Origin: Paramicrobacterium fandaimingii
Lineage (GTDB): Bacteria > Actinomycetota > Actinomycetes > Actinomycetales > Microbacteriaceae
Assembly (NCBI RefSeq): GCF_011751745.2
Contig: NZ_CP061170.1
Location: 682,001-746,000 of the forward strand
Length of the DNA stretch: 64,000 nucleotides
Direction: 5' to 3'
Each line of letters opens with the position of its first letter. Position 1 is the stretch's first letter. The notes under the pieces are model-generated. The model had not been told where the DNA came from and did not search any database. It saw only the letters and a list, made by a program, of their open reading frames with translations. Both the position numbers and the translations under genes were made by a program. This document shows positions 8,719-59,452 of the stretch, one piece after another.

Positions 8719-8968
8719 ATCCACCTCCGGTACGGCTCCCCACAGTAACACCGTGAGAAGACTAAGTTTCCACTATTCAAAATAAAGATTTCAAAAAGAC
8801 TCGACATGGGAACATGTTGCTGTTAGATTCATACCCGCCCGCAACACGCTCGTCGATGATGATTACCGTGACAAATGCGATTCAACGAAATTCACTGTTC
8901 CGGTCGATGTTGAGCCATTTTCACACCCTGCGTCGTCCGGTTTCCCTATAGGAAGGTGACGGACGACG

Positions 8969-9466
8969 ATGACCGTTCAAACCAGTACACAACGCGATGA
9001 GGCATACCTCTCGCGCGCAATCGACATTGCTACACAGAATGTGAGAAAGCAGGGCGGCCCGTTCGGCGCTCTGATTGTCACGGCAGATGGTCAGGAATTC
9101 GAGGGCGTCAACCGTGTAACGGCGAGCCTCGATCCCACCGCTCACGCCGAGGTCTCGGCAATCAGAGCCGCATGCACGGGAACGGAAACGTTCGATCTCA
9201 GCGGCGCCGTTCTCTACACGAGCTGCGAGCCATGCCCCATGTGCCTTGCCTCGTCACTCTGGGCTCGTCTCGACCGCGTTGTCTTTGCGGCGAACCGGGT
9301 CGATGCCGCCGACGCAGGGTTCGACGACGCGGCGTTCTACCGCTTCTTCGACGAGCCCGATGTGCGCGAGAGCATGCTTCCCGTCTCGTTCATTCCCCTC
9401 GATGACCCGACAAGAACTGCTCCGTTCATCGAGTGGGGCAACACTGCCTCACGCATCGAGTACTGA
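8969..9466 (+). CDS. Zinc nucleoside/guanine deaminase (CMP/dCMP deaminase fold)
   Basis: This 165-residue cytoplasmic deaminase has both halves of the zinc site: HAEVSAI (His and catalytic Glu) near residue 57 and PCPMC near residue 92. Small enzymes of this type with a GGPFGALIV start are mainly guanine deaminases that convert guanine to xanthine. The neighbouring AzgA permease and xanthine dehydrogenase support that. It starts after a GGAAGG box and is followed 11 nt later by the AzgA permease. The 250-bp gap upstream (8719-8968) is AT-rich and should hold the promoters of both this gene and moaA. No clear hexamer pair was found there. Confidence 0.85.
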   Translation: MTVQTSTQRDEAYLSRAIDIATQNVRKQGGPFGALIVTADGQEFEGVNRVTASLDPTAHAEVSAIRAACTGTETFDLSGAVLYTSCEPCPMCLASSLWARLDRVVFAANRVDAADAGFDDAAFYRFFDEPDVRESMLPVSFIPLDDPTRTAPFIEWGNTASRIEY

Positions 9467-9477
9467 GGGAGACGACA

Positions 9478-10956
9478 ATGACTCAGACTCGAACACATAC
9501 TCAGTCCCACGGTGACGATGACGACCAGAACGCCGTTCCTCGGTCAGCACTTGACAGATTCTTCGAGATTACGAAGCGTGGCTCGACCCTCGCTCGCGAG
9601 TTCCGCGGCGGAATCGTCACCTTCGTCACGATGGCCTACATCGTCATCTTGAACCCCCTGATTCTCGGAGGCTTCTCCGCAGATGCCGCTGCGACCGACG
9701 TTGCCGGTGGGTGGCTCCCGGCCGAGCAGGTCGGCGCGGTCACCGGACTCACCGCCGGCGTGATCACGCTGCTCTTCGGTGTTGTGGCGAATCTTCCGTT
9801 CGGCCTTGCCGCAGGGCTTGGCATCAATTCGTTTCTCGCCGTCTCGGTCATCCATGATGTGACGTGGCCCGAGGCGATGGGGTTGGTCATCATCAACGGT
9901 GTGATCATCGTTCTGCTCGGGGCAACCGGGGCGCGCACAGCGATCTTCCGTGCAGTGCCGAAGGAACTCAAGGCCGCCATCACCGTCGGCATCGGACTGT
10001 TCATCGCGTTTATCGGGTTCATCGACTCGGGATTCGTCACGGCAGGCTCCGGTGTTCCCGTGCAGCTCGGGAGCGGTGGCAGCCTCACCACCCTGCCCAC
10101 CGCGATCTTCGTCATCGCCCTCTTGCTCATCGGCATTCTCGTTGCACGCAAGGTGCCGGGTGGCATCCTGATCGGAATGATCGCTTCAACGATTCTGGCG
10201 ATCGTTGCGCAGGCGATCTTCAAGCTCCAGCCGGGGGCAGAGGGTGGATGGCACCTGAACGTGCCCGCGCTTCCGTCGCAGATCGTCTCGATTCCGGACT
10301 TCTCGCTCGTGGGTGAGTTTGATCTCATTGGTTCGTTTGAACGAATCGGCGTGCTTGCCGCAACAATGCTTGTGTTCACACTCGTGTTCACGAACTTCTT
10401 CGACGCGATGGGGTCAATGACTGGGCTCGCGAAGCAGGCAGGTCTCGCCCACAAAGACGGAACGTTCCCTCGCCTGCGTGCGGCCTTCATTGTCGAAGGT
10501 GCCGGCGCAATCGCTGGTGGCGCCACGTCTGGCTCGTCGAACACCGTGTTCGTCGACTCGGCTGCGGGTGTTGGTGAAGGCGCGCGCACGGGCTTCGCCA
10601 GCGTCATCACAGGACTGTTGTTCCTTGCATCGATGTTCCTCACACCGCTCACGGCTGTTGTGCCGATGGAAGTTGGTGCGGCTGCCCTCGTCGTTGTCGG
10701 TGCGATGATGATGGCTCAGATCAAGTCGATCAGCTTCACGAAGTTCTCTGTCGCTCTTCCTGCATTTCTGACGATCGTCACCATGCCTCTGACATACTCG
10801 ATCTCGAATGGAATCGGCGTCGGCTTCATCAGCTGGGCGATCGTCAACGCGGCGTCGGGTCGCGCCCGCAAGGTGCATTGGCTGCTGTGGCTCGTCGCTG
10901 CCGGCTTCGTGCTGTACTTCGTCCGCGGGCCGATCACGGCGATGCTCGGCGGCTGA
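9478..10956 (+). CDS. AzgA-type NCS2 permease (adenine/guanine/hypoxanthine)
   Basis: This 492-residue transporter starts at ATG 9478 after GAGGGAG and is coupled to the deaminase gene 11 nt upstream. It carries the AzgA-branch patterns FVTMAYIVILNPLIL near the N-terminus, the TNFFDAMGSMTGLAKQAGL segment, and the later GGATSGSSNTVFVDSAAGVGEGARTG stretch that surrounds the substrate site. It should import purine bases by proton symport and feed the guanine deaminase next to it. Its last seven codons and stop lie inside the left 99-bp repeat, and a copy of that 3' end recurs at 17696-17719. Confidence 0.9.
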   Translation: MTQTRTHTQSHGDDDDQNAVPRSALDRFFEITKRGSTLAREFRGGIVTFVTMAYIVILNPLILGGFSADAAATDVAGGWLPAEQVGAVTGLTAGVITLLFGVVANLPFGLAAGLGINSFLAVSVIHDVTWPEAMGLVIINGVIIVLLGATGARTAIFRAVPKELKAAITVGIGLFIAFIGFIDSGFVTAGSGVPVQLGSGGSLTTLPTAIFVIALLLIGILVARKVPGGILIGMIASTILAIVAQAIFKLQPGAEGGWHLNVPALPSQIVSIPDFSLVGEFDLIGSFERIGVLAATMLVFTLVFTNFFDAMGSMTGLAKQAGLAHKDGTFPRLRAAFIVEGAGAIAGGATSGSSNTVFVDSAAGVGEGARTGFASVITGLLFLASMFLTPLTAVVPMEVGAAALVVVGAMMMAQIKSISFTKFSVALPAFLTIVTMPLTYSISNGIGVGFISWAIVNAASGRARKVHWLLWLVAAGFVLYFVRGPITAMLGG

Positions 10957-10958
10957 AG

Positions 10959-11031
10959 CTAGAAGCTGCTCAGAAGACCGGCTGCGACGCTCACGGCGAT
11001 CGCAGCCGGTTCTTTTGCGTGGATGCTGGGG
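10959..11031 (-). pseudogene. Detached 3' remnant of xdhC
   Basis: Read on the minus strand, this repeat copy encodes the end of XdhC with the same TAG stop. The T at 11020 would change an Arg codon to His. The rest of xdhC is absent here and lies 6.76 kb away, so this is a fossil of the original azgA/xdhC junction. Confidence 0.85.
10978..11009. terminator. Rho-independent terminator after azgA
   Basis: Arms CCGGCTGCGA and TCGCAGCCGG (perfect, 10 bp) enclose a 12-nt loop and are followed by TTCTTTT on the plus strand. The identical hairpin at 17741-17772 ends inside xdhC, so it originally served two convergent genes. Confidence 0.8.
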
Positions 11032-11303
11032 GGCGATCAGCGTAGCCAAACCGCAGAGTGAGATCATCAACGATTTGCCTATGCGACACGACTGACGCTG
11101 GTAACGGCGTAGATCGTGATGGTGTCGTACTTTTTCCATTGACCGATCCCCAGTGAACACACCTGCCGAGAGCGTGCCATCAATGAGTGATTTTGCTCAG
11201 ATTGTTCGGTGGGGCAAGGTCGATGCTCATGTCGAGATCTGCATCGAGACGTCCGATGGAGCGCTGGTGCGCCGCGCCACCGCTCCGTCGTATTTGGACC
11301 GAG

Positions 11304-11852
11304 TTACCCGTGCTGCCCCTGGCCAACTGCGAGCTCGTCGAGCTGCGCCGCGAGGGCACGCTCGTGACGCTCGGTCGCGGTGAACACGCCGTCTGTGACA
11401 TGCTCTGCTACCCAGGCAATCTCGACGTTGCTGTGGACGCCGCGCATTCCCAGATTCGCGAGCACGGGCTGCACGGCGACGACGGCGCGCGTCCCTCCTG
11501 CGAGACCGCCGTAGCTGACCAAGCCGACACGCTTGTCGTTCCACTCGTGGAAGAGGAAGTCGAGGGCGTTCTTGAGTGGTGCCGTGAAGCTGTGGTTGTA
11601 CTCGGGCATCACGAAGATGACAGCGTCCGCTCGCTCGACCTGCTCGCTCCAGAGCCGGGTGTGCTGGTTGCTGTATGTGCGAAGGCGAGGGTGTGCTGGT
11701 TCATCGAGGAACGGAAGCTGCAGCTGCGCAAGGTCGGCGATGTCGAGTTCGAACCCTCCGTGTTCGTGTACGCGCGTCACAACCCAGTCCCCGACGGCGG
11801 GGCCGACTCGCCCAGGACGCGTGCTCGCGATGACGACGAGAAGGCGTCTCAT
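11304..11852 (-). CDS. NADPH-dependent FMN reductase family protein
   Basis: This 182-residue flavodoxin-fold protein starts with the strand and phosphate loop MRRLLVVIASTRPGRVGPAV. The family motif MPEYNHSFTAPLKNALDFL is present, followed by GLVSYGGLAGG around residue 120. Members reduce FMN with NAD(P)H, often to supply a monooxygenase, or act as quinone reductases. The ATG shares 1 nt with the stop of the IclR gene, so the two are cotranscribed. No partner monooxygenase is encoded in the window. Confidence 0.87.
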   Translation of the reverse strand: MRRLLVVIASTRPGRVGPAVGDWVVTRVHEHGGFELDIADLAQLQLPFLDEPAHPRLRTYSNQHTRLWSEQVERADAVIFVMPEYNHSFTAPLKNALDFLFHEWNDKRVGLVSYGGLAGGTRAVVAVQPVLANLGMRGVHSNVEIAWVAEHVTDGVFTATERHERALAAQLDELAVGQGQHG

Positions 11853-12649
11853 CAGCCGACCTCGGCCAGCGGGCGGCTTTCCAGGCGCGCCCAGTCTGCG
11901 CTTATCGCTCCTGCAGCGGCGAGAAGCTGTGGCAAATAGTCATCGACGAGCGTGTCAACGCTCGTCTCGAGAGCATGCGCGTTGACATTGGCAGCGGCAA
12001 CCACAGTGCCGGAACCATTGCGAATGGGGGCGGCGACAGAGCGGATAGCCGGTGCAAGCTGCTGGTCAGTGACCGCCCACCCTGTTGCCCGGACCTCTCG
12101 CAGAACTGCATCAATCTCGTCAGGTTCTGGCTGCCACGAAGGCGTCACGCCAGAGCGGGAGGGAATCGCCAGCGTTCGGTGGAGCTCGTCGGTGGGCAGA
12201 GCGGCCAGCAGCACCTTTCCGAGTGACGTGCAAAGTGCGGGAAAGCGAGTGCCGATCGAGACAGATAGCGTCACCAGCTTCGGTACCGCTACGCGCGATA
12301 CATAGATGATGTCCGAGCCCTCAAGTTGAGCGATCGAGCACGACTGCCCGAGGGACGAGCTCAGGCTGGTGAGGTGCGGGCGAGTCAACTCCCAGATGCT
12401 GCTCGCTGAGACGTACGCCATGCCGAGATCCAGCACATGAGGTGTGAGCGAGAAGAGACCGTCTTGGTTTCGTACGTAACCAAGTTCGGCAAGCGTCAAC
12501 AGGATGCGCCGCACCGTCGGACGCGCGAGCTCTGCTTCGCTGGCGATGTCGCTAAGACTTAGCGGCTGCCCTCGCGTGCCAAACACGCGGATAACGTCGA
12601 GTCCTCGCGCAATCGCCTCGATGAACTCAGGACTTGTGCTGTCGCGCAT
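11852..12649 (-). CDS. IclR-family transcriptional regulator
   Basis: This 265-residue regulator has an N-terminal winged helix (residues ~8-70, with LSLSDIASEAELARPTVRRI) and a C-terminal IclR effector domain (LAALPTDELHRTL, then GWAVTDQQLAPAIRSVAAPI). IclR proteins commonly control aromatic or organic-acid catabolism. This one diverges from the CoA-transferase/ligAB operon across 149 bp, so it probably controls it. The start has GAGGAGG just upstream. The gene is translationally coupled to the FMN reductase. The effector is unknown, perhaps the pathway substrate. Confidence 0.9.
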   Translation of the reverse strand: MRDSTSPEFIEAIARGLDVIRVFGTRGQPLSLSDIASEAELARPTVRRILLTLAELGYVRNQDGLFSLTPHVLDLGMAYVSASSIWELTRPHLTSLSSSLGQSCSIAQLEGSDIIYVSRVAVPKLVTLSVSIGTRFPALCTSLGKVLLAALPTDELHRTLAIPSRSGVTPSWQPEPDEIDAVLREVRATGWAVTDQQLAPAIRSVAAPIRNGSGTVVAAANVNAHALETSVDTLVDDYLPQLLAAAGAISADWARLESRPLAEVG

Positions 12650-12798
12650 GATCCTCCTCGGTCAACTGTCCGATTTTCGACTCTACACAGAAGATGGGAA
12701 GAATAACATCTCCAGGACTGCCTCTTGACGTATGGCGAACGCGGCGATTGAATGGAGTACCGCGATACGGACAATCGTCCGAAATGTCAGGAGCAACA

Positions 12799-14037
12799 AT
12801 GATGCCGACAGCGCCGGCAAGCGACGCCACCGAGGAGACCCCAGAGTGTGGCCCGGCGGTGAGCGCAGGTGGCCCGCTGGCCGGTTTGCTCATTGCGGAC
12901 TTCTCCCGCGTGCTTGCCGGTCCCTACGCGACGCAGCTGATGGCCGATCTCGGAGCAACGATCGTGAAGGTCGAGAGCCCTGGCGGCGACGAGACTCGCT
13001 CCTGGTCACCGCCGGAGCGGGATGGAGTTTCCACCTACTATCTCGGCATCAACCGCAACAAGCACGACGTCGTTCTCGACTTCCGTGATGACGAGGACCG
13101 TGCCCTTGCACAGGAACTCGCGGGACGAGCCGACATCGTGATTGAAAACTTCAGACCGGGAGGTCTCGCGAAGTTCGGGCTCGACTACGACTCTGTCGCC
13201 GCGACCAACTCCGCCGTGATCTACGCGTCGATCAGCGGTTTCGGATCGAGGGAAGGCGCGGCGCTGCCCGGCTACGACTTGATCGTGCAAGCAGCATCCG
13301 GGCTGATGAGCCTGACCGGATCGCCAGATGGCCCCGCATACCGCAGCGGTGTCTCGGTGTTCGACATCATGACGGGAATGCAGGCGACGATCGGCATTCT
13401 CGCCGCCCTCAACCATCGCACCGAGAGCGGCAACGGTCAGCACATCGAGGTAAACCTTCTCTCCACGGCACTCTCGGCGATGGCGAATCACAGTTCGACG
13501 TATGTGGCGGGTGGAACCGTGCCGTTTCGCATGGGAAACGCGCACCCCAGCCTGTTCCCGTATGAACCGCTCCCAGCGCGTGACGGCGAGATCATCATCG
13601 TCGCCGCCAATGACGGGCAGTTCGTGAAACTCGCTGAAGCGATCGGCCGGCCTCACCTTGCGGAAGAGACGCGTTTCAAGACCACCGAGGCGCGAAACCG
13701 CAATCGAGAACAGTTGCGGCCTTTGCTGATCGAAGCACTTGCCGAGCACACGACAGCCGAATGGTTCGAGATCCTCACAGACGCGGGAATCGCGTGCGGA
13801 CCGATCAACACGATTGACGGGGGCGTTGCGCTCGCCGAACGCCTCGGTCTTGAGCCGATCGTCGAGGTCGGTAAGGGCGAGCATGCCGTGCCCATGATTC
13901 GCAATCCCATCATCTTCTCCCGCACACAGCCACGGTACGACTCGCCGCCGCCCACGCTCGGACAGCACAATGACAGCATCCGTGCCTGGCTGAGTGCCCC
14001 ACGAAACACCTCTGAGGGAGGAACCGCGAATGGCTGA
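12799..14037 (+). CDS. Family III (CaiB/BaiF) CoA-transferase
   Basis: This 412-residue enzyme moves CoA between carboxylic acids. Visible marks are the N-terminal IADFSRVLAGPYATQLMADLGA nucleotide-binding region, IENFRPGG near 115-122 and SVFDIMTGM, whose D189 aligns with the catalytic Asp of formyl-CoA transferase. ATG 12799 is chosen because AGGAG lies 5 nt upstream. An upstream ATG at 12784 has no ribosome site. The stop overlaps the start of the citryl-CoA-lyase-like gene by 8 nt. In this operon it could load CoA onto a ring-cleavage product before carbon-carbon scission, which is inference. Confidence 0.9.
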   Translation: MMPTAPASDATEETPECGPAVSAGGPLAGLLIADFSRVLAGPYATQLMADLGATIVKVESPGGDETRSWSPPERDGVSTYYLGINRNKHDVVLDFRDDEDRALAQELAGRADIVIENFRPGGLAKFGLDYDSVAATNSAVIYASISGFGSREGAALPGYDLIVQAASGLMSLTGSPDGPAYRSGVSVFDIMTGMQATIGILAALNHRTESGNGQHIEVNLLSTALSAMANHSSTYVAGGTVPFRMGNAHPSLFPYEPLPARDGEIIIVAANDGQFVKLAEAIGRPHLAEETRFKTTEARNRNREQLRPLLIEALAEHTTAEWFEILTDAGIACGPINTIDGGVALAERLGLEPIVEVGKGEHAVPMIRNPIIFSRTQPRYDSPPPTLGQHNDSIRAWLSAPRNTSEGGTANG

Positions 14038-14833
14038 GTACGCAACGGGAATCGGGACAAGCACGCTCGATTCGATCTCACTGCTCGGGCAGGACCTTGC
14101 CGGTGATCTGATCGGACAGGTCAGCTTCGGAGAACTCGCGTACCGGCTTGCCACGAAGCGCCAGCCGACGGCCGGGCAATTGCGCGTATTCGAAGCTGTG
14201 CTCGTCTCGCTAGCCGACCACGGATTCACTCCAACCGCCATTGCTGCACGTATGACGTACTACAGCGCCCCAGAATCGTTGCAAGGTGCGATCGCCGCCG
14301 GGCTCCTCGGCGGCGGTTCCCGGTTTCTCGGGGTCACGGAAGACACCGGCAAGTACTTGAATGCAATAGCAAAAGGTTTGGGCAGCACGGAGGGCTGGAC
14401 TGCCGAACAGTGGGACGACGCAGCCAGAGAGGCGATCACCGCCACGCGATCCGCTGGCGGGAAGATACCCGGTCTCGGCCACCCCGTGCACAAGAACGGG
14501 GACCCGCGCACGCCCGTTATTATGCACATCGCTGAGGACTCGGGAGTCAAAGGCGTACACCTCAAACTTTTTGAGGCGATCGGGCGCGTGCATCCGGAGA
14601 TCCTCGGAAACACCCTCCCGCTCAACGGTGCCGGTGTCGCCGGGGCTGCGCTCGCAGATGCAGGGCTCCCCGTCGACCTCCTGCGCGGATTCGCGCTTTT
14701 GGCTCGAACTGCAGGACTGATCGGCCACATTGCGGAAGAGCGCGAACACCCGATCGGCCCCACCCTGTACACGCACGTCGACCGGAATGCCGTCTATATG
14801 CCGCCTGAAGCGGAAACCGGAACGAACGACTGA
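14030..14833 (+). CDS. Citryl-CoA lyase-like protein (citrate synthase fold)
   Basis: This 267-residue protein resembles the short citryl-CoA lyase branch of the citrate synthase superfamily, far below the ~430 aa of true citrate synthase. The motif GLGHPVHKNGDPR gives H151 and H154, matching the CoA/oxaloacetate-site histidine. A C-terminal NGAGVAGAALADAG stretch and HIAEEREHPIG follow. Lyases of this kind split a hydroxy-tricarboxylyl-CoA into acyl-CoA and an oxo-acid. Coupling to a CoA-transferase strongly suggests CoA activation followed by retro-aldol (retro-Claisen type) cleavage. The real substrate is unknown. Confidence 0.82.
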   Translation: MAEYATGIGTSTLDSISLLGQDLAGDLIGQVSFGELAYRLATKRQPTAGQLRVFEAVLVSLADHGFTPTAIAARMTYYSAPESLQGAIAAGLLGGGSRFLGVTEDTGKYLNAIAKGLGSTEGWTAEQWDDAAREAITATRSAGGKIPGLGHPVHKNGDPRTPVIMHIAEDSGVKGVHLKLFEAIGRVHPEILGNTLPLNGAGVAGAALADAGLPVDLLRGFALLARTAGLIGHIAEEREHPIGPTLYTHVDRNAVYMPPEAETGTND

Positions 14834-14869
14834 CCCAATCAGCCCAATCGCACACTCGAAGGAGAGACC

Positions 14870-15733
14870 ATGGCGACACTCAGCGCGGTGCTCGCGACGA
14901 CGCACCACCCGTTCTATCTGAAGGCGACGGAATTGACTCCGCCGGAAGAGCGCATTCCCCAGGCGTCCGAATGGAAGCGAAAAGTCGAGGCCTACCGCGA
15001 GACCCTCACCGCGGCCGACCCTGACATCCTCGTGATGGTCGGCGCAGACCACTTTCACCAGTTCTTCTCCGACAATTACCCAACATTCCTCATCGGAAAG
15101 CAGCCGCGGTACGACGGTACGTTCTATAACGAAGAACGTGAGTTCAGCATCCCGAAGTACGTCCTCGACGGCCATGAAGAGCTTTCGGGTTTCATGCTCC
15201 AGGGCCTTCTCGACCGCGGTTTCGATTTCTCCGTCAGCCACGAGCTCAAGATTGACCACTCAATAATCTGCCCGATCATTACCACGCGACCCACGGCCGA
15301 TCTTCCGATCGTGCCGATCTACACGAACATCTTTGCCCCGCCCTTGCCCTCCCCGAGGCGGTTCTGGGACCTCGGCAGGGCTATCCGCTCGATCATCGAC
15401 GAGTATCCATCGGACAAGAAGATCGCAGCTATCGGCAGCGGACACCTCTCACTTGAGTTGGGTGGACCTCGCCAGTTCGGTGAGACCGGCCCCGACCCGC
15501 TGTTCGACAAACAGGCAATCGAGTGGTTGAGCACGGGTAACATCGACGCAATTCTCGACAACGTGACGCACGAGAGCATGGCCGGTGCCGGAAATGCTAC
15601 GCACGGCTTCATGGATCTCATTCTGATGATGGGGATAGCCGGCCCGGAGTCTGCAGCGTACGTCGACAACCTCGACCTCTTCCACACGATGGAGGCCTAC
15701 CTGACCTGGTATCCGAATGGAGACCCGCGATGA
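14870..15733 (+). CDS. Extradiol dioxygenase, catalytic (LigB-type) subunit
   Basis: This 287-residue class III extradiol dioxygenase beta subunit cleaves catechol-type rings next to the diol using non-haem Fe(II). H12 and H61 fall at the same positions as the iron-binding histidines of LigB. H192 in GSGHLSLE matches the catalytic His, and E235 (in THESMAGAGN) is the likely third ligand. It is followed by a LigA-type subunit with a 4-nt overlap, as in protocatechuate 4,5-dioxygenase. The start is preceded by AAGGAGAG. The substrate is not decided by sequence. Gallate, protocatechuate or a hydroxypyridine are possible. Confidence 0.9.
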   Translation: MATLSAVLATTHHPFYLKATELTPPEERIPQASEWKRKVEAYRETLTAADPDILVMVGADHFHQFFSDNYPTFLIGKQPRYDGTFYNEEREFSIPKYVLDGHEELSGFMLQGLLDRGFDFSVSHELKIDHSIICPIITTRPTADLPIVPIYTNIFAPPLPSPRRFWDLGRAIRSIIDEYPSDKKIAAIGSGHLSLELGGPRQFGETGPDPLFDKQAIEWLSTGNIDAILDNVTHESMAGAGNATHGFMDLILMMGIAGPESAAYVDNLDLFHTMEAYLTWYPNGDPR

Positions 15734-16104
15734 GTACGTACTACGTGAACAAGTTTCTCTACCAGATCGATCGTGATCCCGAACTTCTCGCACGCTACAA
15801 GGCAGACCCGCAGGCCATGGTCGATGACTGGGACGCCGATTATGGCCGACGCCTCGGCAATGGATCGACGGTTGAGCGCACAAGCTGGCTTTCGCTCGAG
15901 CCCGACGAGCGTCAGGCGCTCATCGACCACGATTATGTAAAGCTGTTCGAGATCGGTGCCCACTTCTTCCTCACCCTCACGATCTTCATCGCCATATATG
16001 ACGAGGACTACGCGGCTGAGCACGGCCCCTTGTCGTTCCAGCGCGAATATGCGTCGAAGCTTTCCCACTGGCTTGGCACGGACTACCCCTCAGTGGCGCT
16101 CTGA
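15730..16104 (+). CDS. Extradiol dioxygenase small (LigA-type) subunit
   Basis: This 124-residue, all-helical protein has the LigA pattern of short N-terminal residues, a helix with DPELLARYKADPQAMV, then LSLEPDERQALIDHDYVKLFEIGAHFF. In LigAB the alpha subunit covers the active site of LigB. It overlaps the ligB-like gene by 4 nt, so the two are translated together and should form a complex. A separate small subunit favours a protocatechuate 4,5-dioxygenase-like enzyme over single-chain extradiol enzymes such as MhpB. Confidence 0.88.
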   Translation: MSTYYVNKFLYQIDRDPELLARYKADPQAMVDDWDADYGRRLGNGSTVERTSWLSLEPDERQALIDHDYVKLFEIGAHFFLTLTIFIAIYDEDYAAEHGPLSFQREYASKLSHWLGTDYPSVAL

Positions 16105-16145
16105 GCACCCCGCCACCCTCAACCCTCAGGCAAAGGAGCCGAACA

Positions 16146-17633
16146 ATGACACAGGAAACCCCCGATCTCCCCCGCGACGGCCAGCCGATCGTCTTCCGGA
16201 ACGGCACAGTTCTCACAATGAACGGCACTCGTGACGTTCTGCACAGGGGCGATGTACTGGTCTCGGGAGACACGATCCAAGCCGTTGGCACCGCGCTCGA
16301 CGTCCCGGAGGGGACATTCGAGATCGATGCCACGGACGGCATCGTGATACCAGGGATGGTCGACACTCACCGCCACATGTGGCAGACCGCCATGCGAGGC
16401 TACGGTGCTGACTGGACCCTCACGCAGTACTTCGTCTGGTACTACCTTGAGCACGGCAAGCACTTCCGCCCGCAAGACGTTGCTGCGGGCAATGCGCTCT
16501 CGGCAATTGACGCTATCGATGCGGGGGTGACGACGACAGTCGACTGGTCGCATGGTCTGCGAACAATCGAGCACGCCGAAGCGGCACTTGACGCGCTTCG
16601 CAGTTCTACGGGACGGTTCGTGTTCGCGCCGGGAAACATCTTCGGAGCACCCTGGGAATGGGCGTCTGACCCAGATTTCACGAAGTTCATCCGAGACAAT
16701 GACACAGGCTCAGAGATGCTGCGATTCCAGCTCGCATTTGATGTCACCGGTGATCCCTCGTTTCCGGAGAAAGGCGCGTTCGAAGTTGCGCGCGACCTCG
16801 GACTGCCCGTTACCACGCACGCGGGCGTATGGGGAGCCACGAATGACGATGGCATCCGTCTGATGTACGAGAACGGCTTCATGAACACCGATACCGTCTA
16901 CGTTCATGCCGCGACGTTGAACGATGATTCCTATCAGCGCATTGCCGCGACAGGTGGTTCGGTCTCCCTATCCACGGAGAGCGAGCAGAGCTGCGGACAG
17001 GGCTATCCTCCCTCGTGGGTGCTGCGCAGTCACGCCGTTCCGATGTCGCTGTCTGTTGACACAAGCGTCTGGTTCTCGAGCGACTTGTTCACGGCGATGC
17101 GAGCCACGCTCGGCGCTGACCGAGCGTGGGAGCACATCAAGGCCCATGAGAAGGGTGACACCGTCACTCACTCGCATCTGCGCGCGGAGCATGTCGTTGA
17201 GTGGTCGACGCTGGGAGGCGCGAAAGCACTAGGACTCGACACCCTCGTCGGAAGCCTTGAGCCGGGAAAGCGGGCAGATATCGTGCTCGTCAAGAACGAC
17301 AAGTCTCCGACGATGTTCCCGATCACGAACCCTTACGGCCATATTGCTCTGCAGGCCGGGCGAGGCGACGTGCACACAGTGCTTGTCAACGGCGTAATCG
17401 CGAAGTTTCAGAACCAGCTGCTCGGCACGGAGATCTCTCGGGCGAAAGCGGATGTCGAAGACACTGTCGGCTACCTGCGGAGCACACTCGGGGAGGACGT
17501 CTGGGAATCGAACATGAACCCTGAGATTCCCGAGACGAAGGTGCTCGACAACCCATACATGTACACGGAGTACCGGAGTTCAGCGACGCATGGGGGAGAC
17601 GCGCCTCGTGATGCTGAATCGGCGGTGAGTTGA
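16146..17633 (+). CDS. ATZ/TRZ-type amidohydrolase
   Basis: This 495-residue metal hydrolase of the amidohydrolase superfamily has the first metal pair HRH (H75, H77) in MVDTHRHMWQ, with later ligands H225 (THAGVWG), H254 (YVHAATLN) and D305 (SVDTSVW). A C-terminal composite beta domain ends in GKRADIVLVKND. Relatives deaminate or dechlorinate heterocycles such as triazines, guanine derivatives and hydantoins. It is the last gene of the island operon, 41 nt after ligA. It could act before the dioxygenase by hydrolysing a ring substituent, or after it on a ring-opened amide. The substrate is unknown. Confidence 0.87.
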   Translation: MTQETPDLPRDGQPIVFRNGTVLTMNGTRDVLHRGDVLVSGDTIQAVGTALDVPEGTFEIDATDGIVIPGMVDTHRHMWQTAMRGYGADWTLTQYFVWYYLEHGKHFRPQDVAAGNALSAIDAIDAGVTTTVDWSHGLRTIEHAEAALDALRSSTGRFVFAPGNIFGAPWEWASDPDFTKFIRDNDTGSEMLRFQLAFDVTGDPSFPEKGAFEVARDLGLPVTTHAGVWGATNDDGIRLMYENGFMNTDTVYVHAATLNDDSYQRIAATGGSVSLSTESEQSCGQGYPPSWVLRSHAVPMSLSVDTSVWFSSDLFTAMRATLGADRAWEHIKAHEKGDTVTHSHLRAEHVVEWSTLGGAKALGLDTLVGSLEPGKRADIVLVKNDKSPTMFPITNPYGHIALQAGRGDVHTVLVNGVIAKFQNQLLGTEISRAKADVEDTVGYLRSTLGEDVWESNMNPEIPETKVLDNPYMYTEYRSSATHGGDAPRDAESAVS

Positions 17634-17695
17634 GCACCGGTGAATCGAACGAGCTAACCGCTGTGTATCACCCGGTGAGCGGCTACGTTCCGAGC

Positions 17696-17794
17696 ATCAC
17701 GGCGATGCTCGGCGGCTGAAGCTAGAAGCTGCTCAGAAGACCGGCTGCGACGCTCACGGCGATCGCAGCCGGTTCTTTTGCGCGGATGCTGGGG
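17696..17794. repeat. Right copy of the 99-bp direct repeat
   Basis: It matches 10933-11031 with one mismatch at 17783. It begins with a duplicate of the last seven azgA codons plus stop (17696-17719), which here follows unrelated DNA, and continues into the functional xdhC 3' end. Confidence 0.97.
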
Positions 17795-18510
17795 AGGCCG
17801 ATGGGCGTCTGGATGCTGTCGACGCGCTCTGCCGCATTGCCCGCCTCGATGAGCTTCTTGCGAAAGCGCGTCCACTTGGCGCTCGAACCGATCAGCCCGA
17901 TCGAGCCGATGCTCGGCGTGCGCAGCGCAAGGTCGCACAGTGCGAGGTCCTCCGCATGATCGTGCGTCATGATGAACACGTGCGTGCCTTCGGGCAGCAG
18001 GGGCAGAACAGACTCAGGCACGGGAGCGTGATGCACGTCAATCGTCGCCGGGCCGTCGCGCACAATGGCGAGACCATCGTCGGCGACAGCATCCTCTCGT
18101 GAATCGATGAGTGTGAGCGTGAGATCATGCCGCGAGAGAATGCGGGCAAGTTCATGGCCGACATGTCCCATGCCGAAAATGGCGACGGAGGGGGCTGTGC
18201 GCACGGGTTCGAGAAGCATGGTGACCTCGCCTCCACAGCACTGAACGCCGTACTCGGCTGGCGCCTTGTCGCTCAGATTGAGAGTGATGAGCTCCGGTGT
18301 GGACTCGTCTGACTCCAGCATCTCACGGGCGCGATCGATGGCCACGGCCTCGAGGTTGCCCCCGCCGACGGTTCCCCAGGTGTCATCGCGCGACACGACC
18401 ATCTTTGCGCCGCCGTCGCGCGGTGAATGCCCGCGCACGCGCGCGAGGGTCACGATGATGTGACCCTCGCGGCGTTCGCGCAGGGCCTGAACAGCCCTGA
18501 GCCAGTCCAT
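17722..18510 (-). CDS. xdhC: XdhC-family molybdenum cofactor insertion factor
   Basis: This 262-residue protein prepares the molybdenum cofactor (sulfuration and insertion) for xanthine dehydrogenase. The N-terminal XdhC/CoxI domain holds ARVRGHSPRDGGAKMVVSRD and GTVGGGNLEAVAI. CCGG at about 97-100 holds the conserved cysteines, and the C-terminal Rossmann part has FGMGHVGHELARIL and GLIGSSAKWTRFRKKL. Its start shares one nt with the xdhB stop, so it is the last gene of xdhABC. The last 24 codons are duplicated at 10959-11031. Confidence 0.92.
   Translation of the reverse strand: MDWLRAVQALRERREGHIIVTLARVRGHSPRDGGAKMVVSRDDTWGTVGGGNLEAVAIDRAREMLESDESTPELITLNLSDKAPAEYGVQCCGGEVTMLLEPVRTAPSVAIFGMGHVGHELARILSRHDLTLTLIDSREDAVADDGLAIVRDGPATIDVHHAPVPESVLPLLPEGTHVFIMTHDHAEDLALCDLALRTPSIGSIGLIGSSAKWTRFRKKLIEAGNAAERVDSIQTPIGLPSIRAKEPAAIAVSVAAGLLSSF
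17741..17772. terminator. Second copy of the azgA/xdhC terminator, inside xdhC
   Basis: The same 10-bp perfect stem as at 10978-11009, within the last codons of xdhC. On the plus strand, with its TTCTTTT tail, it would end the island operon 108 nt after the amidohydrolase stop. Confidence 0.75.
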
Positions 18511-40969: not shown

Positions 40970-41983
40970 ATGGCCACGAGCGACGAACGGCGCAGGCTGC
41001 CGAACATGCGCGACGTCGCAAAGGCGGCAGGGGTGAGCCATCAGACGGTGTCGCGCGTGATCAACGACCACCCGAGCTTGCGCGACGAGACCAAGCGGCG
41101 TGTGCTCGAGGTGATGACCGAGCTCAACTATCGCCCCAACCGCGCGGCGCGCGCGCTCGTGACGAGCAAGTCGCACACCATCGGCGTGCTGGCTTCCCAT
41201 CGCTCCGAGTACGGACCGGCAACCATGATTGAGGGCGTCGAGGATGCGGCGAAAGACCGCGGCTACTTCGCCAGCACCGTCAATCTCGCGAACTCAGACG
41301 ACGCAGCCATTCGCGCGGGACTCGACCACCTCATGAACCAGGCAGTCGATGGCATCGTGATCGTCGCACCCCAGGTTCACGTGCTCGACGCCATGAGCTT
41401 TCTTCAGCTGGACGTGCCCTTCGTCTCGGTGCATCAGCGCGACGGCGCTGACCGCCACGTCATCGCCGTCGACCAGGTGGCTGGAGCACGCCTCGCGACC
41501 CGGCACCTCATTGAGCTGGGGCATCGTCGCATTGCCCACCTTGCCGGCCCGCAAGAGTGGGTCGAGGCGCAGGCGCGTACGCGAGGGTACCTCGACGAGA
41601 TGGCAGAGCACGGGCTCGTCGCCGCGCAACCGATCGTCGGCGACTGGTCGTCGGATTTCGGGTATCAGGCAGCGCGCGAGCTTCTCTCCGATGGGTCAGC
41701 GACCGCCGTCGTCTCGGGCAACGACCAGATGGCCCTCGGGCTGATTCACGCGCTCCGCGAGCGACGGCTCGATGTGCCTGGCGACATCTCCATCGTCGGA
41801 TTCGACGACATTCCCGAGGCGCGGCACTTTTGGCCGCCACTCACAACGGTGCGGCAGGACTTCACCGAGTTGGGGCGCCGCGCCGTCTCGCGGCTTCTCG
41901 ACAACGTCGGCGAGGCGATCACCGAGCCGATTGAACCGCGACTCGTCGTTCGCGCGTCGACGGCCCCGCTGGCGCATCCGTGA
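40970..41983 (+). CDS. LacI-family regulator, first of two flanking a sugar importer
   Basis: This 337-residue repressor has an HTH with MRDVAKAAGVSHQTVSRVINDHPSL and hinge YRPNRAARALV. The sugar-binding core has VSVHQRDGADRHVIAVDQVAGARLATRHLIELG and SIVGFDDIPEARHFWPPLTTVRQ. ATG 40970 follows GAGGGGGAGC. Its stop overlaps, by a GTGA, the start of a degenerate ABC-ATPase-like gene, so the two are translated together. It is very similar in layout to the LacI protein at 48276-49298, suggesting duplication. Either could bind the lac-like sites at 43295-43401. Confidence 0.92.
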   Translation: MATSDERRRLPNMRDVAKAAGVSHQTVSRVINDHPSLRDETKRRVLEVMTELNYRPNRAARALVTSKSHTIGVLASHRSEYGPATMIEGVEDAAKDRGYFASTVNLANSDDAAIRAGLDHLMNQAVDGIVIVAPQVHVLDAMSFLQLDVPFVSVHQRDGADRHVIAVDQVAGARLATRHLIELGHRRIAHLAGPQEWVEAQARTRGYLDEMAEHGLVAAQPIVGDWSSDFGYQAARELLSDGSATAVVSGNDQMALGLIHALRERRLDVPGDISIVGFDDIPEARHFWPPLTTVRQDFTELGRRAVSRLLDNVGEAITEPIEPRLVVRASTAPLAHP

Positions 41984-43269
41984 CCGCATACCGGCCGAGA
42001 CTTCAGGCGGTGCTCGGCGGAATGCCCGAGTCGCTCGAGGGTCACCGCATCACGCCGGACGGAGCATCCAGCCCGCACCAGAGCGCTGCCGAGAACGTGA
42101 TGCTCGGCCGTGAGCCAACGCGCTTCGGGTTCATCCGCCGCCGTGAACTCGAGGCACGCGCCGCCGAGCTCCTCAACGCGGTGGGGTGGACGGGCAGCAT
42201 TCGCTCACCGCTCGGGGAGCGTGACGTCGTCGACCGCCGCCGTGTGCACCTGGCGCGCGCGGTCGCCGAGGCGAAGGCGCAGGGAGCACCAGCCGTGCTC
42301 GTCGACGACTCCGGTGACGAGCTTTCTCTCGACGACAGCGTTCGCTGGAACGAGGCCCTGGCGCGTGCCGCAGAGAGCATTCCCCTCGTAGTCGCCGTGA
42401 CGACGCTAGACGCGTGCGGACCACGCATCGAGGGCGTGCTCGTCAATCACGACGCTCGTGTATCGGGGCCGTTTGACCCATCGGATGCTGGCGCGATCAG
42501 CGCAGCGCTCGGCATCGACCGCCCGTGTCGCGTGGTGCCGCCACGCCCGCAGGGCGAGATTCTTCTTGCCGTCGACGACATCCGTGTGATGCATCCCGTC
42601 ATGCCCGGCCGCGTCGTGTTCGACGGCATCTCCTTCGAGGCGCGCGCCGGCTGCGTCACAGGACTCGCCGGCGCTCAGGCGAACGAGCTGCTGGCGAGTC
42701 TGAGCGGTCGCGGATTCGGTGAGATCGTGTCGGGCTCGGTGACGGTGGCAGGAGCCGATGTCGGCCGTCTGTCGCGCGAGAAGGCAATCGAACGCGGTGT
42801 CGTGTTTGCGACAGAGCACCCCCTGAGCTATGAGGTGGGCTTCGTCGGCGGCATTCCCAGCCGAGTGTCGGCGGAGCGGCTGCGAACCCTCGCGCGCACC
42901 GGAATGATCGATGCGGCGCGCGAATATCGCCCGGTGACTTCGGCATCCCTCCTTCAGACCGTCGGAGTCGGCCGACCTCCTTCGCGCGATGATTTCGAGG
43001 GGATGCTCTCGGCTCTCGTCGCGGGCTCAGCCACCGTCGTCTTGCTTGCTGAGCCTCTGCTCGGACTCGAGGGCGACGGCAGGGCTCAACGGGTTGCGAT
43101 GATCGACCGCCTTGCGGCAGCGGGCAAAGCCGTTGTCGTCTCGGCGAGCCCAGACGACCTCGCGATGCTCGCTGACGAGGCGCTGATTGTCGTGCACGGT
43201 CGCGTTCGAGAGACGATCACGCGCGGAACCCTCACCTCCGCAGCCCTGTGGCGCGGCATCATTCTCTGA
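41980..43269 (+). CDS. Degenerate ABC ATPase-like protein (sugar-importer type, catalytically dead)
   Basis: These 429 residues follow the double-ATPase layout of RbsA/YtfR but lack every catalytic box. The frame begins about where the first Walker A should be. AENVMLGRE (residues 37-45) matches the Q-loop region of YtfR-type proteins. The first signature is replaced by DVVDRRRVHLARAVA and Walker B by AVLVDDSGD. In the second half GLAGAQANELLASLSG stands where GxGRSEL is expected, and VLLAEPLLGLE where VLDEPT is expected. The frame is intact and shares a GTGA overlap with lacI, so it is probably expressed. It may be a regulatory pseudo-ATPase. Decay of an old importer gene is the alternative. 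Confidence 0.7.
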   Translation: MTAYRPRLQAVLGGMPESLEGHRITPDGASSPHQSAAENVMLGREPTRFGFIRRRELEARAAELLNAVGWTGSIRSPLGERDVVDRRRVHLARAVAEAKAQGAPAVLVDDSGDELSLDDSVRWNEALARAAESIPLVVAVTTLDACGPRIEGVLVNHDARVSGPFDPSDAGAISAALGIDRPCRVVPPRPQGEILLAVDDIRVMHPVMPGRVVFDGISFEARAGCVTGLAGAQANELLASLSGRGFGEIVSGSVTVAGADVGRLSREKAIERGVVFATEHPLSYEVGFVGGIPSRVSAERLRTLARTGMIDAAREYRPVTSASLLQTVGVGRPPSRDDFEGMLSALVAGSATVVLLAEPLLGLEGDGRAQRVAMIDRLAAAGKAVVVSASPDDLAMLADEALIVVHGRVRETITRGTLTSAALWRGIIL

Positions 43270-43294
43270 CGACCAGGTGACACGGGAATTAGAA

Positions 43295-57547: not shown

Positions 57548-57612
57548 TTGCGACCGTGCCGCTGGGCAGTTCTCCCCTTGTCGCGCGTCTCCGCTCACGT
57601 CACAGTAGGGTC

Positions 57613-58419
57613 ATGACTACAGCACGTCGCACCGTCGTATTCAACGTCACCGTGGCTTTTGTCGCGGCCCATCTGATCATTGTGCTCCTGCACGAGCTCG
57701 CACACGTCGAGGCAGGGCTCGTGCTGGGCTATCACAATGTGCTCTTCCCCTTCGGAGTGACCCACCATCCGGAGCCGACGGGGGCTCACGCGGTGATCGC
57801 CGGGCTTGCCGGGCCGGCTTTCAGCCTCGTCACGGGCTTCGCCGCGCTCGCTCTCACTCCGTTTCGCGGCGGTTTCGCGCGATTGATCTGGCTATGGTTC
57901 GCGTTTCTCTCGGTGATGGAGGGTATTGGCTACCTTGTTCTCACTCCGTTTGGCATTGGCGATACCGGGGCCGCGGCTGTGGCTCTCGAGCTGCCTCCTG
58001 CTGTGTCGTGGGTGTGCTTTGCCGCGGGTGTGCTCGGCGTCGTGTGGCTCGCTCGCCACTTCGCCAGCGTCGCGCTTCGGCACACGGACGGAGAGCTGGA
58101 GTCGCTGCGCTGCTTCACGTTCTACCCGTGGATATTCGGAACGATCATCGCGCTCGCGCTGACGAGCGCGAACCTCCTGCTCGCGAACGAGACTTTCGCA
58201 ACGGGCGACGTCTTCGGCGTGCTCATGGCGGCGTTTGCCCTTGGGGTGTTCTCGCCCATGGCGATGCCGTTCACAACGGCGGCTCGACGCCGTGCTCCCG
58301 AGATCGTCGGCAGCGTTCCACTGTCGCTTCCGCGAGTTCCCCTGACAGGAATCGTCATCACCGTCGTCATCATCGCGCTCAACCTCAGTGTGCTCTCGCG
58401 CGGGCTGCCGCTGGGCTGA
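57613..58419 (+). CDS. M50-like integral membrane metalloprotease homologue
   Basis: This 268-residue protein has about six or seven hydrophobic segments. HELAH in IIVLLHELAHVEAG is the zinc-binding HExxH of site-2-type proteases. VIAGLAGPAFSLVTG resembles their second conserved region, but a clear third-ligand LDG motif is not visible. It may therefore be a reduced or inactive member. ATG 57613 was chosen because the upstream codons lie in the promoter region. It is transcribed away from the sugar cluster and converges with the LacI gene (1 nt between stops). The target is unknown. Confidence 0.65.
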   Translation: MTTARRTVVFNVTVAFVAAHLIIVLLHELAHVEAGLVLGYHNVLFPFGVTHHPEPTGAHAVIAGLAGPAFSLVTGFAALALTPFRGGFARLIWLWFAFLSVMEGIGYLVLTPFGIGDTGAAAVALELPPAVSWVCFAAGVLGVVWLARHFASVALRHTDGELESLRCFTFYPWIFGTIIALALTSANLLLANETFATGDVFGVLMAAFALGVFSPMAMPFTTAARRRAPEIVGSVPLSLPRVPLTGIVITVVIIALNLSVLSRGLPLG

Positions 58420-58420
58420 G

Positions 58421-59452
58421 TCAGGCTCGTGCGCCGACACCCGGCGTGCTCTCACGCACCAGCACGGGCCCGCTCACAGGGTCAGGAACACCGCCGTCAC
58501 CCTCGCCGAGTGCGAGCTCAACAGCGCTGCGGCCGATCGACTCCAGCGGAATCTCAACGGTCGTGAGGGGAGGAGTGACGTCGCGAGCGGTCGAGATGTC
58601 GTCGAACCCGGCGATGCCGACGTCTGCGCCGGGCGTGATGCCGGCGCGGCGCAGCGCAGACATCGCACCGACAGCCATGATGTCGCTCGTCGCGAAGATG
58701 ATGTCGACGTCAGAGACCCCGGATGCCGCGAGATGCTCGCCCGCGGCGAAGCCGCCGTCGCGCGTGAAATCGCCGCGCGCTGTGCGCACGACGTCGCCGC
58801 CGCCTGCGCGGAAGCCCGCGGTGAACCCAACGGCGCGCTCTGTCGACGTGATCAGTGCCTCGGGTCCGGCGACGACGGCGGCGCTGCGATACCCGAGGGA
58901 GGCCATCCGCTCGCCGAGCCCCCGCGCAGCGCCCGCATTGTCGATGCGCACGGTGTCGAAGCCGAGGCCGCTCTGGCTGATGAAGACGACGCGGCCGCCT
59001 CCCTGGCGAAACACCTCAAGCTCGGCCGTCAACTCCGCCTCGAGCGTGGCATCCGAAAAACGTGAGCCGGCGAGAATGATCGCGCGGGGGCGCTGTCCGC
59101 GCAGAGCACGCACGGTTGTGAGTTCGCGGTCTGCGTCGCGACCGGTGACGGCGACAGTGACGACGAGTCCTGCCTCGTCTGCCGCTGCCATCGCACCGGA
59201 CGTGATGGCAGAGAAGTAGGGGTCTGCAATGTCTCCGACGAGCAGGCCGACAATGTTCGCCCGCCCCTTCGCCATGGCCTGGGCCGAGAGGTTCGGGGCA
59301 TACCCGAGGCGTTCAGCGGCGGCCATCACCCGTTCGCGATAAGACTCGGCAACCTTGCGAACGCTTCCATTGAGCACGCGAGACGCCGTTGCAAGCGACA
59401 CTCCGGCTTCGTCGGCCACATCATTGAGCGTGACGGGCGATGATGACTCCAC
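58421..59452 (-). CDS. LacI-family regulator of the sugar cluster
   Basis: This 343-residue regulator has an HTH with LNDVADEAGVSLATASRVLNGSVRKV. The effector core runs from IVGLLVGDIADPYFSAITSGAM to ADVGIAGFDDISTARDVTPPLTTVEIPL. It lies on the same strand as the DUF993 cluster but about 950 bp upstream of it, with the M50-like gene between. Its likely operator is the GGTAAACGCTTTCC site at 57503-57516. A link to the amino-sugar genes upstream is also possible. The inducer is unknown. Confidence 0.9.
   Translation of the reverse strand: MESSSPVTLNDVADEAGVSLATASRVLNGSVRKVAESYRERVMAAAERLGYAPNLSAQAMAKGRANIVGLLVGDIADPYFSAITSGAMAAADEAGLVVTVAVTGRDADRELTTVRALRGQRPRAIILAGSRFSDATLEAELTAELEVFRQGGGRVVFISQSGLGFDTVRIDNAGAARGLGERMASLGYRSAAVVAGPEALITSTERAVGFTAGFRAGGGDVVRTARGDFTRDGGFAAGEHLAASGVSDVDIIFATSDIMAVGAMSALRRAGITPGADVGIAGFDDISTARDVTPPLTTVEIPLESIGRSAVELALGEGDGGVPDPVSGPVLVRESTPGVGARA

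Follow-up and report, generated by a model that had tools for sequence, protein, structure and literature searches.

A seven-gene catabolic cluster of Paramicrobacterium fandaimingii very probably reached its present site by an insertion that duplicated the junction of two convergent genes, azgA and xdhC, so that a 99-bp direct repeat now stands on each side of it. The insertion with duplication is well supported because two congeners, G003 and G004, keep this junction undivided and in a single copy. The cluster lies in a window of 64,000 nucleotides (contig NZ_CP061170.1, positions 682,001 to 746,000), which is the whole stretch of DNA analysed here and to which unlabelled positions refer; the genome, G000 in what follows, is closed and consists of one contig of 3,622,163 bp. 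Four congeners (G001, G002, G003 and G004) were compared with it, and family-wide searches covered 398 Microbacteriaceae genomes.

Duplication of the azgA/xdhC Junction

In agreement with the first-pass annotation of this DNA, the two repeats are identical at 98 of 99 nt and lie 6763 bp apart from start to start; 6664 bp stand between them, and they differ only in a T at 11020 and a C at 17783. The 99-mer occurs at only two sites in the whole genome, both flanking the cluster, and a direct-repeat scan of the window (seed 16, families of at least 40 nt) returned one other family, with 73% identity over 40 nt; a chance origin of the repeats is excluded. The final 24 nt of azgA are supplied by the left repeat and the final 73 nt of xdhC by the right one, and an undivided junction would place the two stop codons 2 bp apart. 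Both neighbours are full-length by comparison with G003 (azgA residues 12–507, xdhC 1–262), and the left copy does carry the orphan xdhC tail that had been described, the right copy the orphan azgA tail. The first-pass annotation had also placed both gene ends and their terminator within the repeats; the gene ends are indeed there, but the hairpin sits in the coding end of xdhC and not between the genes. Folded as RNA, the azgA strand of the repeat reaches −48.7 kcal/mol (z −3.05) and the xdhC strand −36.6 kcal/mol (z −2.06). A simple terminator scan did not list this hairpin in its output, and its role as a terminator is for that reason one that we infer.

In G003 and G004, azgA and xdhC converge undivided with one copy of the repeat, which is the original arrangement that had been proposed, and the step from that single copy to the two copies found here is what an integration duplicating the junction would produce. 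One 100-bp block of G003 aligns to both repeats, running through the left and restarting in the right, with 2 of 99 positions different in the left copy and 3 of 99 in the right; at the mismatch site, a C/T change in a CpG, G003 carries the T of the left copy. Within the 19-kb stretch read in G002, only azgA matches (68%). G001 has xdhC and most of azgA, but its azgA is truncated at 373 codons, and unrelated DNA of about 680 bp fills the interval up to the end of xdhC (L031 9600-10280); its junction was disrupted at the edge of the hairpin core, separately from the insertion of the cluster. This 680-bp stretch holds a 124-aa lipoprotein-like reading frame with no Pfam or PHROG match.

Distribution and Changing Position of the Cluster

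A LigB match at E ≤1e-80 was found in 14 of the 398 family genomes, G000 included. The neighbours of the cluster were inspected at 13 other carrier loci from whole genomes and in a separate set of nine loci, which overlaps the former (L030 is the same locus; L038 and L041 belong to the same species as loci among the 13). Within the sequence stretch available for each locus, azgA, xdhC or xdhB lies near the cluster in none of the 13 and in none of the nine; the first-pass annotation had named close relatives with the same seven genes at this spot and no repeats as the case that would speak against it, and no such case was found. In G001, the neighbours of the cluster are a MarR-type gene, whose stop lies only 2 bp from it, and an Hsp20 gene; at the corresponding site G000 has 36 bp and no cluster. 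The neighbourhood of the G001 cluster has at least three genes in common with that of G225, a member of another genus, and the G001 site therefore looks older than the G000 site.

Among five congeneric carrier pairs, four have the cluster at different loci (G000/G001, G308/G379, G215/G379 and G215/G308) and one at the same locus (G201/G371); the pairs with G215 were judged from one side, as its contig ends within the cluster. The G215 cluster is divided over the ends of contigs C90 and C45 at the ligA/amidohydrolase boundary, perhaps because of a repeated element. Seven complete clusters measure 6278–6434 bp from outer stop to outer stop, and a 13-mer is common to no pair of their 320-bp left flanks and to one pair of their right flanks. 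Shared 11- and 12-mers were found in 7 and 3 pairs on the left and in 3 and 2 pairs on the right, a slight excess over shuffled left flanks (2.35 and 0.65 with a single-letter shuffle). The nearly unshared flanks and the different loci of four congeneric pairs argue against an element with ends of its own.

Repeats around the cluster were detected with exact 20-mers at one of the 13 other carrier loci, two of which end inside the cluster or within about 400 bp of it. Direct repeats in G029 were rejected as a flanking pair, both lying on one side of the cluster, and diverged 117-bp direct repeats in G371 were rejected as cluster boundaries, as they border a different insert. The latter (L089 522-7069, beside the cluster) contains ATPase-like, SIR2-like and nuclease-like frames, named from their translations, and looks like a defence island.

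The parallel case is G308, of another genus, in which a strong palindrome stands in direct orientation on both sides of the cluster (L086 5892-5974 and 12291-12373; 83 nt, 92%), at distances of 31 bp from its left and 7 bp from its right outer stop. This palindrome is dispersed in the genome, with 57 half-site matches grouped into 33 loci, among which six neighbouring pairs fall within 6.5 kb where a uniform null predicts 1.8 (P 0.007); it was found in none of five other genomes searched, and G379 and G215, of the same genus, have no locus of it. In four of nine congeners (G014, G215, G379 and G433), no more than 1.6 kb separates the genes that flank the G308 cluster; in the other five, the distance ranges from 8 to 225 kb. 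Dispersed repeats may thus have provided the crossover points in G308, and the case therefore supports recombination between repeats in general and not the same event as in G000.

The first-pass annotation had described the insert as foreign DNA, a description that the sequence does not support: its GC (guanine plus cytosine) content and its divergence match those of the host genus. The GC content of the cluster is 0.613, against 0.612 in the left and 0.65 in the right flank, and the closest relative of the cluster found is that of G001 (79% over 6.3 kb). Identity to G001 at fourfold sites is 0.425–0.553 for the seven cluster genes and 0.410–0.659 for six host genes, and a foreign origin is unsupported because the two sets are equally diverged. 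On these sequence measures the cluster appears native to the genus and does not have the make-up of a compositionally alien island. A tree built from five concatenated proteins of 19 carriers gives a support of 1.000 to each of three pairs: G000 with G001, G308 with G379, and G201 with G371. G215, a congener of G308 and G379, is placed beside G029, which is from another genus; at 0.203 the support for this placement is so low that the tree leaves the genus of G308 and G379 unsettled.

Mechanism of Insertion

The explanation that we favour, though only tentatively, is capture of the cluster in the repair of an offset break at the hairpin-bearing azgA/xdhC junction. The ends of such a break would be offset by 99 bp, either through two offset nicks that were filled in or through a step back of 99 bp when a repair fork primed anew, and cluster DNA native to the genus would have been captured while the break was being repaired. 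The recipient's own 99 bp would then be copied to both sides of the cluster, both neighbour genes would remain whole, each new convergent pair (azgA with the FMN reductase gene, and the amidohydrolase gene with xdhC) would gain a hairpin copy of its own, and a recombinase of the element would not be required. This repair is favoured because a single event would account for the near-identical copies, the sharp ends and the lack of an enzyme. The segment that was duplicated belongs to the recipient and is single-copy in the empty relatives, as an offset break would leave it, and homology past the repeat ends is not significant (P 0.07 on the left, 0.52 on the right). The pattern of the hairpin core, with up to three mismatches, occurs in four of the 398 family genomes, in G001 once and away from its cluster; the core adjoins no other cluster among the genomes searched, and thus no donor with a ready-made piece of the junction was seen. 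The separate break in G001 at the core edge would fit a weak point.

Several observations weigh against offset-break capture. Neither a break nor microhomology has left a direct trace at the junction, and a Campbell circle would yield an identical anatomy. Among the runs that the four species share without a difference in the first 28 kb, the 47-bp core ranks third, with runs of 82 and 61 bp ahead of it, and its conservation is therefore not exceptional. The hairpin is off-centre, with 39 bp of the repeat to the left of its core and 13 bp to the right. Two other stretches that are extra to G003, 41978-43286 (about 1.3 kb) and 57549-58502 (about 0.95 kb), hold ordinary genes and have no repeats of at least 40 nt, so that such duplication is not general in the window.

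The main rival is a Campbell-type single crossover, which is possible but less probable, brought about either by a circle with the cluster and about 99 bp of a near-conspecific azgA-xdhC junction or by a fragment anchored on one side and joined illegitimately on the other. A repeat, an insert and a second repeat with intact neighbours are the expected product of this event; the palindrome copies around the G308 cluster are possible crossover points, and 99 bp exceeds the threshold of about 30 bp for RecA recombination in E. coli that PMC2884548 cites. The donor must, however, have held exactly 99 bp of the junction and no further homology on either side, while azgA, xdhC and xdhB are missing from the vicinity of the cluster at the 13 other loci and the core stands beside no other cluster; no circle or donor with the same homology was found among the carriers examined, although the true donor may be unsampled. 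Compared with insertion by Campbell-type or homology-facilitated illegitimate recombination, for which PMC2884548 cites the original work, the present insert is alike in the absence of mobile-element genes and in a fitting anatomy, and is unlike it in that no donor with adjoining homology was found and that the homology is exactly 99 bp and duplicated.

Site-specific integration into the 3' ends of xdhC and azgA, with an integrase since lost or acting in trans and the 99 bp as the identity segment of the attachment (att) sites, is unlikely. Hairpins and the 3' ends of genes often serve as att sites, and the core is unchanged across four species. Direct repeats derived from the 3' end of the target, as seen here, are a mark of islands, and long ones are known, such as the 49-bp repeats of PAGI-97A at tRNA-Pro (PMC8373256). 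Four of the six Phage_integrase matches of the genome also fall within about 32 kb elsewhere (G000:C1:1955663-1987204), a region that is probably an integration hot spot. Against this, none of the seven insert proteins is a recombinase by Pfam and NCBIfam (of the small open reading frames in the insert, only 11153-11383 was scanned), and the nearest match to a tyrosine integrase (PF00589) lies 0.8 Mb away, serine recombinases and transposases not having been searched. The carriers have nearly no common flank and occupy unrelated sites, with neither conserved ends nor a common target, and the repeat takes in 24 nt of azgA that would be superfluous for an att site in xdhC. Compared with islands of the PAGI-97A type (PMC8373256), the insert is alike in its place at a gene 3' end and in long direct repeats through which the neighbour gene stays intact, and unlike in having no integrase found within it, carriers without common ends, and a site between two protein genes. 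A transposon was rejected, as a 99-bp duplication does not fit and no terminal inverted repeats of at least 20 nt occur at the insert ends; the only inverted repeats of that length between 10000 and 19000 are 10685-10707/13414-13436, away from these ends.

An occupied state older than the split from G003, followed in G003 and G004 by a clean deletion of the cluster when the two repeats recombined, is very improbable. Clean loss leaves no scar, and the T that G003 shares with the left copy saves one change on the tree, but the argument depends on this single site, where the change is C/T in a CpG, and the cluster of G001 stands elsewhere in the neighbourhood that looks older. An assembly artefact can practically be dismissed: each repeat completes a different intact gene, the genome is a single contig, and 99 bp is below the length of an ordinary sequencing read. 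Precise loss of 6763 bp through the repeats would be plausible.

A broader idea, which we regard as improbable, is that a seven-gene catabolic unit with no ends of its own moves again and again within genera of the Microbacteriaceae, each time landing at a terminator-like hairpin between converging genes and duplicating it, so that both new junctions stay insulated. It would be driven by a host process that acts on hairpins and not by an element-encoded recombinase, and G000 and G308 would be two cases of it.

The Seven-Gene Cluster and Its Spacers

The features of the locus are collected in Table 1. The seven genes that had been annotated in the insert were recovered by Pfam and NCBIfam, two of them (FMN reductase and IclR) directed leftwards and the other five rightwards.

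Table 1. Features of the cluster and its borders in the window.
Feature	Position	Strand	Evidence or remark
azgA-like permease, left neighbour	9433..10956	+	Pfam Xan_ur_permease 1.3e-29; complete vs G003
Left 99-bp direct repeat	10933..11031	+	azgA end, 2 bp, orphan xdhC tail with hairpin
47-bp hairpin core	10972..11018	.	identical in G000 (twice), G001, G003, G004
Left spacer	11032..11303	.	272 bp, GC 0.562
FMN-reductase-like flavoprotein	11304..11852	-	Pfam FMN_red 9.8e-34
IclR-family regulator, PcaR/PcaU-like	11852..12649	-	260.4 bits, under NCBIfam cut-off 284.75
Family III CoA-transferase	12694..14037	+	Pfam CoA_transf_3 1.1e-114; start codon uncertain, homology from about residue 55
Citryl-CoA-lyase-like protein	13994..14833	+	NCBIfam NF004868 282.2 bits, cut-off 193; solved citryl-CoA lyase 6hxp 6.3e-25
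LigB-type extradiol dioxygenase subunit	14870..15733	+	Pfam LigB 9.5e-28; gallate dioxygenase 3wku 1.8e-16
LigA-like small subunit	15730..16104	+	Pfam LigA 26.6 bits, cut-off 25.3
Amidohydrolase	16146..17633	+	Pfam Amidohydro_1 1.8e-24; NCBIfam PRK08204 369.2 bits, below cut-off 391
Right spacer	17634..17695	.	62 bp
Right 99-bp direct repeat	17696..17794	+	orphan azgA tail, 2 bp, functional xdhC end
xdhC, right neighbour	17722..18510	-	NCBIfam TIGR02964 244.9 bits, cut-off 161.6

The cluster probably serves to open a ring, aromatic or heteroaromatic, and then to cleave a CoA-activated product, because the predicted protein families point to ring opening, CoA activation and carbon-carbon cleavage. 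The solved structures related to LigB are gallate and protocatechuate dioxygenases, and no solved relative of the amidohydrolase was found at 1e-20. As in the LigAB pathways for protocatechuate and gallate, LigB and LigA subunits occur with a PcaR-like IclR regulator; unlike in these pathways, the cluster combines them with a CoA-transferase, a citryl-CoA-lyase-like protein and an amidohydrolase, and LigB scores below every NCBIfam cut-off, without an equivalog-level match to a named LigAB pathway. A literature search for a pathway with this combination of genes returned no paper. Parts of the cluster also occur on plasmids, for example of Rhodococcus and Neorhizobium, and none of the 110 plasmid records that match a part covers more than 80% of the cluster at one place. 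A second copy in the genome was looked for and rejected, the only match being one of 144 bp (71%).

The left spacer has no plasmid match, none in G001–G004, no family and no weighty match in the loci compared. It was considered as a gene relic and rejected: its 49-aa frame (11153-11299) matched six other genomes of the 398 at E ≤0.05 (best 8.7e-4), and the two matched frames that were examined are of unrelated make-up, so that the matches were judged to be chance. The reading frame has no Pfam match, and its best PHROGs match is at 0.075.

Outside the insert, the stretch 8820-8984 does not differ from G003 in any of its 165 bp, and it includes two runs, of 42 and 35 bp, that four species share unchanged; it lies immediately upstream of, and extends into, a deaminase-like gene, has no Rfam match at E ≤1, and is possibly a regulatory leader. 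Between 8 and 20 kb, Rfam at E ≤1 gave six matches, all under their gathering scores.

Significance

The type of event is already known, and the insertion is a real but fairly ordinary one with a long target duplication. In the variable bacterial segments treated in PMC2884548, direct repeats occur at 10–18% of small segments and 66–94% of the repeats are shorter than 30 bp; the present segment is like them in its presence or absence among relatives and in the direct repeats at its base, and unlike them in having 99-bp repeats around 6.7 kb. It offers a clean natural case in which a long target duplication is seen with no recombinase apparent and in which the empty forms of both sites, this one and the G001 locus, are known in relatives. 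The change of position of the cluster among relatives is the more interesting part than the insertion itself, and the repeats predict a clean loss of the metabolic trait. If capture at a fragile hairpin is true, it would give a testable route by which working operons may relocate without mobile-element genes and without damage to their neighbours.

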